From positions 24,811 through 88,810 of the forward strand of contig JAAYBB010000066.1 in the NCBI GenBank assembly GCA_012719075.1: a stretch of DNA of 64,000 bases. The letters are read 5' to 3'. The DNA is from Clostridiales bacterium (lineage in GTDB: Bacteria > Bacillota > Clostridia > Oscillospirales > Feifaniaceae). The stretch's first letter is position 1. Each line of letters opens with the position of its first letter. The position numbers and the translations under genes were made by a program. This document shows, one piece after another, positions 4,018-57,498 of this stretch. The notes beneath the pieces were generated by a model. The model saw only the letters and a list, made by a program, of their open reading frames with translations, searched no databases and was not told the origin of the DNA.

Positions 4018-4046
4018 TTGCCGCCGCCCCGCGGCTGTGGTACAAT
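4018..4046 (+). promoter_or_regulatory. Sigma-A-like promoter upstream of ybaK-like gene
   Basis: TTGCCG, 17-nt spacer, TACAAT with TGTG extension. Confidence 0.5.
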
Positions 4047-4069
4047 AGCCGCAAAGCGGCTATTGTACC
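4039..4069. repeat. Perfect 14-bp inverted repeat overlapping the -10 region
   Basis: ggtacaatagccgc-aaa-gcggctattgtacc. Confidence 0.9.
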
Positions 4070-4252
4070 GGTGATGCCCCCATCGCCTCCCGCGCTTCTC
4101 GCGGAACCGGCGAGGGATGACACAGCATACCCGTCGGCTGTGCCGACAGGGTATACTGGACCCAGTCAATTCGCGGCAGCCGGCGAAGGGCGCGGCGCAT
4201 GCGCCGTCCTCTGCCCGCAAAGCCGCCAGAACGGATCGGGAGGTCAACCAAG

Positions 4253-34832: not shown

Positions 34833-34951
34833 CTTGGCCCTTACCCTTGGTCCTTAACTTGGCCCTTAACTTGGCCCTTAACTTGGCCTTTAACTTGGCC
34901 TTTAACTTGGCCTTTAACTTGGCCCTTGATTTGGCCCTTTGTCTTGGTCCT
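34833..34951. repeat. 12-bp tandem repeat, about 10 copies
   Basis: Unit cttggccctta(a) / cttggcctttaa, most regular from 34851 to 34932. Confidence 0.9.
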
Positions 34952-35164
34952 TGTGCCAGGTCAGGTCTCGCCCGACCCACCGGTTTTTTAGGATCGCCGG
35001 CATGAGACTTGGCCACAGAAAAGCTACCCCCTTATCCAGCCGCCCTTGAAAGGCTGCTGGTACAGGGCTTGCCCAGGCGCGCTGCTACCGGCCTTATTCC
35101 TCGCCCCCTTATAAGATCTCGGCCACGGGCCGCGGGGCAGGGGATCACGGCCTGCGGGCCGCTC

Positions 35165-35187
35165 GTACTTTTGGGCGTCAAAAGTAC
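35165..35187. repeat. Perfect 9-bp inverted repeat
   Basis: gtacttttg-ggcgt-caaaagtac. Confidence 0.8.
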
Positions 35188-35243
35188 CAAAACCGCCGGG
35201 GGGTATTGCGAGACCCCCCGGACCCCCCGGCGCCACTAAAGTA

Positions 35244-35275
35244 CAACAGGCCCCAAGGAAACTTGGGGCCTGTTG
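35244..35275. repeat. Perfect 14-bp hairpin with GAAA loop
   Basis: caacaggccccaag-gaaa-cttggggcctgttg. Confidence 0.9.
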
Positions 35276-35286
35276 CTATTGTCAGA

Positions 35287-35353
35287 GGAACACTTGAAAA
35301 ATCAGGACTCGCACCCTACGGGTGCTCAGACAGCTGATTTTTCCACGCGTTCC
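35287..35353. repeat. Long imperfect nested hairpin
   Basis: ggaacacttgaaaaatcag ... ctgatttttccacgcgttcc enclosing gcaccc-tac-gggtgc. Confidence 0.8.
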
Positions 35354-35453
35354 TCCCATCTGATACGCTTCGCGGCTGGAAGTGGTGGCTTACCGGCGGG
35401 GGCAAGTACTTTGGGCAGGGCCTCTACCGACCAGTTGGAAACCATCTTAGGTG

Positions 35454-43545: not shown

Positions 43546-44151
43546 CTACCCATCACAGGCATGCCAGCGGTAGTCATGATCCATTGCGCCGGGTTGATAT
43601 TTGTATAGGATCTGTCCGCCCTTGTCGTAGGCGGTTGCAAGAACCGGAGAAATGACGTTGCCAAGGGGAAAGATGACGATGCCATCCACAGGCACCGGGC
43701 GTGTCTGCCCCGGCTGTGCATCCGGGAGGGTCTGCCCCTGCACCGCGCCGAGTATTTCGCCGGGTTTTACGGCTGTGATATGGTGCACGGCCGGATCTTG
43801 GCTTCGAAACGAGACAAAGGTGATGAACTCCCTGCGGTCGCGTACGAAGCCCTGGCAGAGCGTTTCAATCTTGTCCCCGTATTTTTCAGCATGGAACGTA
43901 TCCCGCATGGCACGCCAAAGGCCAACCAAACTTTTTTTCACGGGAATGGTGCGGATCACATCCTGCTCTTCAAAAAAGACCAATATGTAGTCGCCCAGTG
44001 CAGACTCTCCAATGCAGGTGGATTCCTCATTGTAGGATGCGTTTTTCATGGCGGCTTTGAGGGGGGTCAGGCTCAGGCCGTTGACTAGGATGAGGAACAC
44101 AAGCAGCAGCAGGAGTCCCAGGGCGCCAACGGCGAAGTTTCGTCTCTTCAT
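43546..44151 (-). CDS. Membrane-anchored hypothetical protein
   Basis: N-terminal TM helix NFAVGALGLLLLLVFLILVNGL; no family recognised. Confidence 0.55.
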   Translation of the reverse strand: MKRRNFAVGALGLLLLLVFLILVNGLSLTPLKAAMKNASYNEESTCIGESALGDYILVFFEEQDVIRTIPVKKSLVGLWRAMRDTFHAEKYGDKIETLCQGFVRDRREFITFVSFRSQDPAVHHITAVKPGEILGAVQGQTLPDAQPGQTRPVPVDGIVIFPLGNVISPVLATAYDKGGQILYKYQPGAMDHDYRWHACDG

Positions 44152-54746: not shown

Positions 54747-55880
54747 ATGAAAAAGCTACTTGCGCTGCTTCTCTGCCTGACCATGGTGTTCGCTCTGGCC
54801 GCCTGCACCAAGAAGGACCCCGAAACCCCGCCGGCCGGCGGCGACGACGAAACCCCCGGGGACGAGGTGCGGCCGATCAAGGTGGTCAACCTGATCAACG
54901 GCACGCTGGGTGACCTCTCGTTCTTCGACTCGGCCGAAAACGGCATGAAGATGCTCAAGCAGGAGCTGGGTGACAAGTTTGAATACAGCACCCAGGAGCT
55001 GTCCTACGACAACAACAAGTGGGAGCCGGCGCTGCTGGACGCCTCCGAAGACCCCACGGTCGACGTCATCATCTGCGGCACCTGGCAGATGCAGGAAGTC
55101 CTTGAAAAGCACGCCGACGAGTTCCCGGAGAAGACCTATATCCTCTACGACGCCAGCGTGAACTGGGCCGGCGGCGACTATAAGAACGTCCACTGCATCG
55201 AGTACAAGCAGAACGAGGGCTCCTACCTGGCCGGCGTGCTGGCCGCCTCCATGACCCAGTCGGGCAAGATCGGCTTCCTCGGCGGCATGGACAATCCCGT
55301 CATCAACGACTTCCTGGTGGGCTATATCCAGGGCGCCAAGTCGGTCAAGGACGACATCAAGATCATGCAGTCCTTTGTCGGCAACTTCAACGATTCGGCC
55401 AAGGGCGCCGAGCTCTCGGGCGTGCAGTTTGCCTCGGGTGTGGACATCGGCTTTGCCTGCGCCGGCCAGGCCGGACTGGGCATGTTTGAGGCCGCCGTCA
55501 ACGCGGGCGGCAAGGACTCCGGCCTGCGCATGATCGGCGTCGACTCCGACCAGGCCATGGTGTTTGAGGAGAACGGCCAGCTCGACCGCGCCACCCTGAC
55601 CACCACCTCGATGCTCAAGCGGGTCGACATTTCACTGTACCGCGCCATCCTCGACTATATGGACGGCAAGCTGCAGATGAAGGTCACCAACCGCGTTGGC
55701 ATTGAAGAGGGCTGCATCGGGCTGGCCGACAACAAGTACTATCAGGAGCTGGTCCCGGACGAGGTCAAGACGGCCGTCAAGGCGGCCGAGGACGAGATCG
55801 TGGGCGGTTCGGTCACCGTCGTGACCGCGCTGGGCATGCCGCAGGACGAGCTGGATGCCTACAAGAACGCCGTGAAATAA
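54747..55880 (+). CDS. BMP family ABC transporter substrate-binding lipoprotein
   Basis: Lipobox FALAAC; DLSFFDSAENGMK; NEGSYLAGVLAASMTQSGKIGFLGGMDNPVINDFLVGYIQGAK. Confidence 0.92.
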   Translation: MKKLLALLLCLTMVFALAACTKKDPETPPAGGDDETPGDEVRPIKVVNLINGTLGDLSFFDSAENGMKMLKQELGDKFEYSTQELSYDNNKWEPALLDASEDPTVDVIICGTWQMQEVLEKHADEFPEKTYILYDASVNWAGGDYKNVHCIEYKQNEGSYLAGVLAASMTQSGKIGFLGGMDNPVINDFLVGYIQGAKSVKDDIKIMQSFVGNFNDSAKGAELSGVQFASGVDIGFACAGQAGLGMFEAAVNAGGKDSGLRMIGVDSDQAMVFEENGQLDRATLTTTSMLKRVDISLYRAILDYMDGKLQMKVTNRVGIEEGCIGLADNKYYQELVPDEVKTAVKAAEDEIVGGSVTVVTALGMPQDELDAYKNAVK

Positions 55881-55903
55881 GGCTTTTTGCAAAAAAGAGA
55901 CTG

Positions 55904-55938
55904 CCCCCTTGCGCAGCTGCGCAAGGGGGCGGTTTTTT
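55904..55938 (+). terminator. Rho-independent terminator after the BMP gene
   Basis: gcccccttgcgcagctgcgcaagggggc followed by ggtttttt. Confidence 0.85.
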
Positions 55939-56006
55939 ATCTGCACGGGTGCGCCTAACCGTATCGGCCGCCCACATGCGCGCGCATGTGCCCCCGGCCC
56001 GGGCGA

Positions 56007-56146
56007 GAACCCCCGGGCGGGGGTTCCCCGCTCCGGCAAAGCCGGAGCGGGTGCCTTTGGGCCGACCGGCCCGGGGGCAACGGGGGCCGGAACGGCCCCC
56101 GTTGGGCGGCCTCTGCAGCGAGGCCCCGCCGGGTTGCAGAGGCCGC
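56007..56146. repeat. Run of five consecutive hairpins
   Basis: Perfect stems at 56007-56026, 56027-56051, 56059-56072, 56079-56103 and 56106-56146. Confidence 0.9.
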
Positions 56147-56225
56147 AGGGCCTCCCACCGCCTCCATGCAATCGGAGCCACGTTCCCGGCCAGGGGGGAC
56201 AGCGCCGCTCTGTTGCCAAACGTCA

Positions 56226-56249
56226 AAGAGGCGCCCGCGGGCGCCTCTT
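56226..56249 (-). terminator. Terminator-like palindrome downstream of the DUF401 gene
   Basis: aagaggcgccc-gc-gggcgcctctt. Confidence 0.55.
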
Positions 56250-56292: not shown

Positions 56293-57498
56293 CTACAGCA
56301 GGGCGGTCAGCAGCGCGTAGTAGCCGATCAAAATGGCGCAGAAGCTCAGCACGACCGGCAGCGTCTTGCGGATCAGCGGCGTCATGCCGATGCCGAAGTA
56401 CTCGGTCACGATGGCCAGGCAGATGTGGGTCGGGCTGAGCTGCATGGCGGCATAGGCGTACCCCATCAGCAGGACCAGCAGCGGCATGCCGGCGCCCGGC
56501 ACCGTGCTGAAGGCCAGCGCCGTGCAGGTGGCCGCGATGGTGTTGGCGCCGCCCACCAGCGTGCCGAAGAAGAACAGCAGCGCAAAGACCAGAAAGGAGG
56601 GCAGCGGCAGGCGGGCAAAGTAGGTCGGCATCACGTCGATGACGCCGACGTGGATCAACACGTCCTTGAAGATGAAGATCAGCAGCGTGTTGGAGATCAT
56701 GCGCTTGTCAAAGGCGCTTGCCGCCATGGGCAGCAGCTCGGCCGGCTTAAAGCGGTCGACCAGGATGTTCAGCAGCAGCACGATGCCGGTCGCCATCCAG
56801 ACCTTCATTTCAAGCACCAGGATCAGCGCGATGACCAAAAACAGCGTCCACACGCTGCGGAACAGGTTGACCAGGTCGTGGAGTCTGTTCTGGCTGGGCA
56901 CATCGCCGGTCTCGCGCGGCACCTTGCGCAGGTAAAAGAAGTGCCCCAGCGCCGCCAGCACCAGCACCATCGGGAACATGCCGGCCACAAAGGCGCCCAC
57001 CGACACCCCGCTCAGCGTGCAGGCGATGATGACACTGGAATAGGTGGGCAGGATGCTCTCGGGAATGTGGCGGTAGTAGCTGGTCACAAAGGTCTTCTCC
57101 TCCACCGAGAGGGCGTCGCCCACCGCGCTGTCGACGATTTCGCCGCAGATCGTGACGGCGGCGGCCGAGGGCAGCAGCCCGATGAAGATGGGGGCCAGCG
57201 AGGCGTTGATGCGCCGGTTGTTGAAAATGCCGTTGAGGGAGCGCTGGGCCCTCAGCAGCTGGCCGCGCTCTTCAAGCATGCGCTGCAGGTATGTAATCAG
57301 GTAGAGCACCAGCAGGATCTCCAGCGTCCCGAGTGAGGTGACCGCGTTCAGCGCCAGTTTTAAAAAGGTTCCGATCGGGATGCCATAGAGCGGTACCGCG
57401 ACAACAATGCCGCCGAGAATGGCCAAAAACAGCGGCCGACGCAGCCACATGAGCCCCAAAATGACGGCAAACACCGCCGCCAGCTTGACAAGCAGCAA
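56293..57498 (-). CDS. DUF401 family membrane protein (transporter-like)
   Basis: About 10 TM helices; IFIGLLPSAAAVTICGEIVD; SYYRHIPESILPTYSSVIIA; TTG start after GGGGGAG. Confidence 0.82.
   Translation of the reverse strand: MLLVKLAAVFAVILGLMWLRRPLFLAILGGIVVAVPLYGIPIGTFLKLALNAVTSLGTLEILLVLYLITYLQRMLEERGQLLRAQRSLNGIFNNRRINASLAPIFIGLLPSAAAVTICGEIVDSAVGDALSVEEKTFVTSYYRHIPESILPTYSSVIIACTLSGVSVGAFVAGMFPMVLVLAALGHFFYLRKVPRETGDVPSQNRLHDLVNLFRSVWTLFLVIALILVLEMKVWMATGIVLLLNILVDRFKPAELLPMAASAFDKRMISNTLLIFIFKDVLIHVGVIDVMPTYFARLPLPSFLVFALLFFFGTLVGGANTIAATCTALAFSTVPGAGMPLLVLLMGYAYAAMQLSPTHICLAIVTEYFGIGMTPLIRKTLPVVLSFCAILIGYYALLTALL

Follow-up and report, generated by a model that had tools for sequence, protein, structure and literature searches.

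Hairpins and Nested Fold at the Locus

Analysis of the window, the whole 64,000-nucleotide stretch of DNA under study, located a BMP-family lipoprotein gene (PF02608) at 54747-55880 on the + strand and a DUF401 gene (PF04165) at 56293-57498 on the - strand. The BMP-family gene is followed on the + strand by a terminator-like hairpin with a T-run (55902-55938), and a terminator-like palindrome lies on the DUF401 side (56226-56249). For the space between them, the first-pass annotation had proposed an array of five consecutive perfect hairpins at 56007-56146. All five stems were found: GAACCCCC at 56007-56026, CCCGCTCCGGC at 56027-56051, the 5-bp stem GGGCC at 56060-56073, AACGGGGGCCG at 56079-56103, and GCGGCCTCTGCA at 56106-56146. 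They are genuine and far exceed chance expectation; however, they do not constitute an independent linear array, and both the boundaries and the unit had been misjudged.

The conserved unit spans 55966-56111 and is a nested three-way-junction ("cloverleaf") element, hereafter family F1, delimited by a covariance model (R1) and by the DNA fold of both strands. R1 matched the window copy at 55962-56115 with 79.4 bits, and the opposite strand with 51.2 bits. The outer stem of the element, P1, is GC-rich (GGCCGCCC..GGGCGGCC) and surrounds three parts, namely hairpin X, a middle stem P3 and hairpin Y. Four of the five hairpins fall inside this one structure; P1, P3 and X (ACATGC..GCATGT) had been missed. 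The 5′ arm of P1 (GGCCGCCCA, 55966-55974) pairs with its 3′ arm (TGGGCGGCC, 56103-56111), as indicated by the consensus structure, covariation and the DNA fold. Hairpin X (CATGC GCGC GCATG, 55975-55988) was identified by covariation and DNA fold. P3 (55989-56079, with arms at approximately 55989-56005 and 56063-56079), recognized as inverted repeat I3 and in the DNA fold, carries two or three inner hairpins. In the window copy these are hairpin A (56007-56026, the first of the five; DNA fold), the 11-bp hairpin B (56027-56051, the second; covariation at helix 5 and DNA fold) and hairpin C (56053-56062; consensus structure and DNA fold), which is reduced in this copy. The GGGCC stem represents a weak alternative pairing, and GCC/GGC at 56053-56062 is preferred in the DNA fold. 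Hairpin Y (56080-56102, the fourth), of 10-11 bp, was identified by covariation (helix 7) and DNA fold. The fifth hairpin (56106-56146) is largely external to the element; it overlaps and competes with the 3′ arm of P1, and it is private to the window copy, being absent from the flanks of other copies.

Folding exceeded what shuffled sequences achieve. The RNA fold of 55950-56200 reached -170 kcal/mol with z = -5.3, and none of 200 shuffles was as good. For the DNA fold of 55964-56113, z was -7.8 (+ strand) and -9.4 (- strand), and both strands gave the same tree. Arrays of this density numbered 36 in 1.37 Mb of the genome, compared to none in an order-2 Markov control. GC-rich intergenic DNA makes hairpins cheap in a genome of 64% GC, and the array could in principle consist of chance palindromes or reflect an assembly artefact. 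This explanation can practically be dismissed, as a chance origin is rejected by the fold z-scores of RNA and DNA, by the Markov control, and by homologous copies with compensated stems that are dispersed over several contigs.

Copies of F1 in the Genome

When the genome (1.88 Mb, 92 contigs; assembly 93% complete) was searched by blastn with the region, partial copies emerged elsewhere at 80 and 73% identity, and the best of them form the same tree from other stem sequences. Nine copies were aligned (alignment A1), and the consensus structure derived from their individual folds was used to build R1, which detected 12 distinct loci in unrelated gene contexts at E < 0.001. C54 scored E = 0.02 and shows no evident X, but visual inspection led to its acceptance as a 13th copy; a decayed copy is present on C84. 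Genome statistics were drawn from 1.37 of the 1.88 Mb together with whole-genome searches. The copies share 61-77% pairwise identity. Their ends are conserved (GCGGCCGCCC..GGGCGGCCGCTG) and their flanks unrelated at about a dozen loci, and the P1 core GGCCGCC/GGCGGCC is common to most of them. Single hairpins have been cleanly lost: copy C88b is without C, C70 is without A, and C48b has one inner hairpin left. The differing stem sequences had been taken earlier to argue against copying, which is misleading, since the stems are parts of one element that has itself been copied around the genome.

Two further observations were made during these searches. Tandem-type repeats of GCTCCAACGGGTGCGCCGCTT adjoin a truncated F1 copy consisting of X and a P1 arm only (L013:1341-1530; G000:C82, ~43800-44000). 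A collagen-like GXY-type repeat (L011; G000:C7:11491-14524) gave a spurious DNA match to the hairpins.

Other Structured Repeats of the Genome

The genome contains other structured repeats. F2 is a second, longer hairpin-array repeat, of which approximately 35 segments were found, often at contig ends (window 34870-35433; L102, L126, L129, L059, and L050), with stems such as CCTCCTTTTGC..GCAAAAGGAGG and TCCAGGGGGTACCC..GGGTACCCCCTGGA. F3 is a repeat of approximately 205 bp with ends GCCTGTCAAAAAA..TTTTTTGACAG, present in 17 copies in 1.37 Mb (sites include L120:8186-8400, L065:8878-9093, L137:2411-2626, L109:4503-4718, L127:10190-10405, and L063:14055-14270). About six F3 copies are flanked on each side by a direct repeat of one entire terminator-like hairpin (25-35 bp), which would suit insertion of F3 with duplication of a long target that contains a terminator. 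Another structured repeat, with GGTATAC-type stems, has five copies (window 4036-4165; L065:2429-2566, L100:142-283, L124:9406-9544, and L134:3643-3728).

Covariation, Wobble Pairs and Inner Inversion

Covariation was evaluated over 65 pairs in the nine aligned copies, with shuffles and with pairing partners slid by 1-3 columns as controls. Paired cells amounted to 91%; the F1 stems are imperfectly maintained, given that 49 of 547 alignment cells were unpaired, many of them in P3. Two-sided changes occurred in 25 of the 65 pairs (shuffled mean, 11.7), the number of cells changed on both sides was 44 against 14.2 expected from shuffling, and the covariation score was 0.230 compared to 0.077. 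Sliding the partners abolished the signal. Hairpin Y was the clearest case, with 99% of cells paired and seven of 11 pairs compensated. The stems therefore covary across copies, which supports the earlier suggestion that structure rather than sequence is constrained.

The 44 Watson-Crick double changes were accompanied by only three G-U cells. In F3, a repeat from this genome too, double changes and G-U stood at 47:21, compared to 44:3 in F1 (Fisher p = 0.002), although F3 is an imperfect control whose copies are closer to each other. In the minimum-energy RNA folds of 13 copies, G-U made up 2.6% of all pairs, compared to 6.6% in shuffles. Constraint at the RNA level is commonly believed to work via G-U intermediates (PMC8794818). 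Because double changes so outnumber G-U cells, the near-absence of wobble points to maintenance at the DNA level rather than the RNA level.

From X to Y, the window copy and C10 carry the inner hairpins in the order A-B-C, whereas the remaining copies with a readable order carry them as C-B-A. The stretch enclosed by the P3 arms must thus have flipped at least once, and this difference may be one event shared by two related copies. Arm homogenisation and spacer inversion are two reported products of template switching between inverted repeats (PMC8604942). Both are seen in F1, for which template switching itself is the inferred mechanism.

Genomic Placement

All 14 F1 sites are intergenic according to our own codon-usage gene finder (P ~4e-10 at 79% coding density, the true P being somewhat larger as two sites share one gap). 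Seven of the sites lie in convergent gaps, six in tandem gaps and one in a divergent gap. Convergent gaps, which make up 18.5% of intergenic length, are over-represented among the sites (p = 0.007); the window is not the only convergent gene pair with such an element. Thirteen copies are downstream of one or both neighbouring genes. Of the six copies in tandem gaps, three point one way and three the other.

No target-site duplication was detected at F1, as flank similarity was 6.6 for own pairs and 6.8 for swapped pairs. Insertion into palindromes was considered and rejected, because the flanks paired no better than swapped ones. REP systems have a Y1 transposase. A search for Y1 (TnpA_REP, PF01797) gave no match in the genome (93% complete), and positive-control genomes were matched. 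The placement, the lack of target duplication and the lack of a Y1 gene agree with a view of F1 as an old passenger whose presence downstream of genes is tolerated.

F1 and Similar Folds in Other Genomes

Sequence searches for relatives of F1 were nearly all negative. No copies were found by blastn with the region in 58 relatives, R1 matched none of 394 genomes from the order at E < 1e-4, and viral contigs and phages contained no F1 sequence relatives. Plasmids gave one weak partial match (24% coverage, 76% identity). A pattern match in Georgenia was rejected as a relative, being without the hairpin array. In the sampled stretches of relatives, no conserved gene order was found from which orthologous gaps at F1 sites could be compared.

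Because the F1 sequence drifts, a sequence-blind descriptor was written, requiring P1 of at least 9 bp, P3 of at least 8 bp between X and Y, and X and Y together of at least 15 bp, all abutting. The descriptor is strict and recovers only five F1 copies in its own genome. In the parts of the relatives that were sampled, it detected five trees in 0.29 Mb of G005 and one in 0.09 Mb from G001, two species that belong to another genus of the same family. It detected none in 0.27 Mb of G003 (same family), in 0.1 Mb of E. coli, or in the Markov controls. One G005 tree (~L172:16564-16723) retains the P1 core GCCGCCC/GGGCGGC with its other stems changed. Two trees, L198:6556-6645 in G001 and L167:6644-6734 in G005, occupy the same locus in an 18-kb block of ~89% identity. 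This orthologous pair differs by four two-sided changes with no G-U in one large 21-bp stem, and in another intergenic hairpin of the block one pair is a wobble and one is broken. The architecture of the nested-cruciform repeat is shared within a bacterial family and across genera. Separately, G005 contains three consecutive very long perfect hairpins (up to ~24 bp) with no outer stem at L169:7628-7756.

Proposed Explanation and Alternatives

We propose, with a probability of about 0.6, that F1 is a non-coding, cruciform-forming intergenic repeat, a passenger that dispersed long ago and whose palindromes are kept up mainly by template switching during replication. The repeat of approximately 150 bp would fold on either DNA strand into a nested cruciform, in which P1 leads to a junction of X, P3 and Y, and a second junction inside P3 would bear up to three hairpins. 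A putative enzyme would have dispersed it as a MITE-like or REP-like passenger; at 61-77% identity, the copies are too diverged for recent mobility. The stems would stay perfect mainly at the DNA level, one arm being copied from the other and the spacer sometimes being inverted in the process. Template switching has been reported to create and maintain hairpins (PMC8794818). Copies would accumulate between genes, and above all downstream of genes, because they do least harm there, and any effects on transcription or supercoiling would be secondary. Against the proposal stand the failure to find a mover, with neither a Y1 transposase nor a target-site duplication at hand, and the unpaired cells of the alignment. 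Selection on the DNA fold would yield the same double changes as template switching, and the enrichment in convergent gaps would also fit a role in transcription.

Such a role corresponds to the earlier suggestion of a transcription barrier between convergent genes. The stable tree could stop read-through in both directions or block 3′-5′ exonucleases in mRNA decay, as proposed for E. coli BIMEs. The very stable RNA fold is compatible with this, as are the excess of F1 in convergent gaps and the location of 13 of 14 copies downstream of a gene; however, the same distribution is expected from a bias in where transposition is tolerated, and half of the copies lie in other kinds of gaps. An ordinary terminator-like hairpin with a T-run already stands between the BMP gene and the window copy, which lies outside it, and selection at the RNA level should tolerate more G-U than the three cells observed. 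We consider a barrier unlikely as the main explanation. A structured non-coding RNA or riboswitch-like element, kept for its RNA fold, would account for the strong covariation and the low folding energy. It is nevertheless disfavoured, and in our judgement very unlikely: there is no Rfam match (only a tRNA was found in the window), no promoter-like site and no conserved unpaired motif, the orientation relative to genes is random, both strands fold equally well, and almost no G-U appears among the changes.

The suggestion of a recombination or binding array comes closest in spirit, in the sense of a dispersed repeat that forms cruciforms; no enzyme for it was identified. In its stronger form, the three-way junction would be the substrate of a transposase or recombinase that keeps the fold as the sequence drifts, making F1 a hairpin-recognising mobile element or recombination site. 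The conserved ends with unrelated flanks at a dozen loci, and an architecture rather than a sequence common to genera, speak for such an enzyme; against it stand the lack of a Y1 transposase, of target duplication and of recent copies, and no longer gene-bearing element with the same ends was noticed in 1.37 Mb. This alternative is improbable as well, about on a par with the barrier.

Beyond the passenger repeat maintained by template switching, a broader proposal is advanced tentatively, at less than even odds: that one bacterial family harbours a class of intergenic elements in which only the nested three-way-junction cruciform fold is inherited. The sequence would turn over freely among the copies of one genome, from genus to genus and at an orthologous site, with template switching or a junction-recognising enzyme rewriting the two arms of each stem jointly. 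Sequence searches can overlook an entire class of intergenic element, which the structure descriptor detects in another genus. Template switching has been proposed to explain how perfect stems withstand random mutation (PMC8794818). F1 makes this upkeep testable and is well suited as a natural example for studying how DNA hairpins stay perfect: with a dozen diverged copies of a seven-stem fold in one genome and an orthologous site in a species pair, arm homogenisation, spacer inversion and single-hairpin loss can be counted directly.

Comparison With Known Repeat Systems

F1 shares features with several known systems. Like the SLS repeat families (PMC2267715), it is dispersed, mostly intergenic and characterized by a common predicted secondary structure. 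SLS families are, however, defined by sequence clustering (PMC2267715), whereas F1 keeps a whole multi-branch tree although its copies are only 61-77% identical, and between genera the architecture alone is retained; wobble pairs are almost absent. The REP, BIME and REPIN elements with RAYT (PMC3116915, PMC3733652) are likewise intergenic palindromes and hairpin arrays, and F1 resembles them also in that no target duplication was found. REP units are palindromes of 20-40 bp with a tag at one end (PMC3733652), whereas the F1 unit is approximately 150 bp long and nested, with ends GCGGCCGCCC/GGGCGGCCGC, in a genome with no Y1 gene; an unsystematic look at the printed flanks revealed no apparent GTAG or CGTC tag. 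Similar to MITEs, F1 is short, non-coding and dispersed between genes, and has terminal inverted repeats, namely the P1 arms of 9-13 bp that are conserved in most copies. It differs from MITEs in having no target duplication and an almost wholly paired interior, and no autonomous partner with the same ends was noticed in 1.37 of 1.88 Mb.

The repetitive hairpin-forming and double-hairpin elements of mitochondria (PMC2800124) are comparable as single, double or triple hairpin repeats spread intergenically without a known mover, but they belong to another genetic system, and their folds are simpler than the nested three-way junction of F1. Hairpin maintenance by template switching, known from quasipalindromes (PMC8794818, PMC8604942), shares with F1 the two-sided changes without wobble intermediates and the inversion of the spacer between arms; it is a mutational mechanism rather than an element family, and one that would apply to F1. 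F1 falls among the structured intergenic palindromic repeats, a kind already known.
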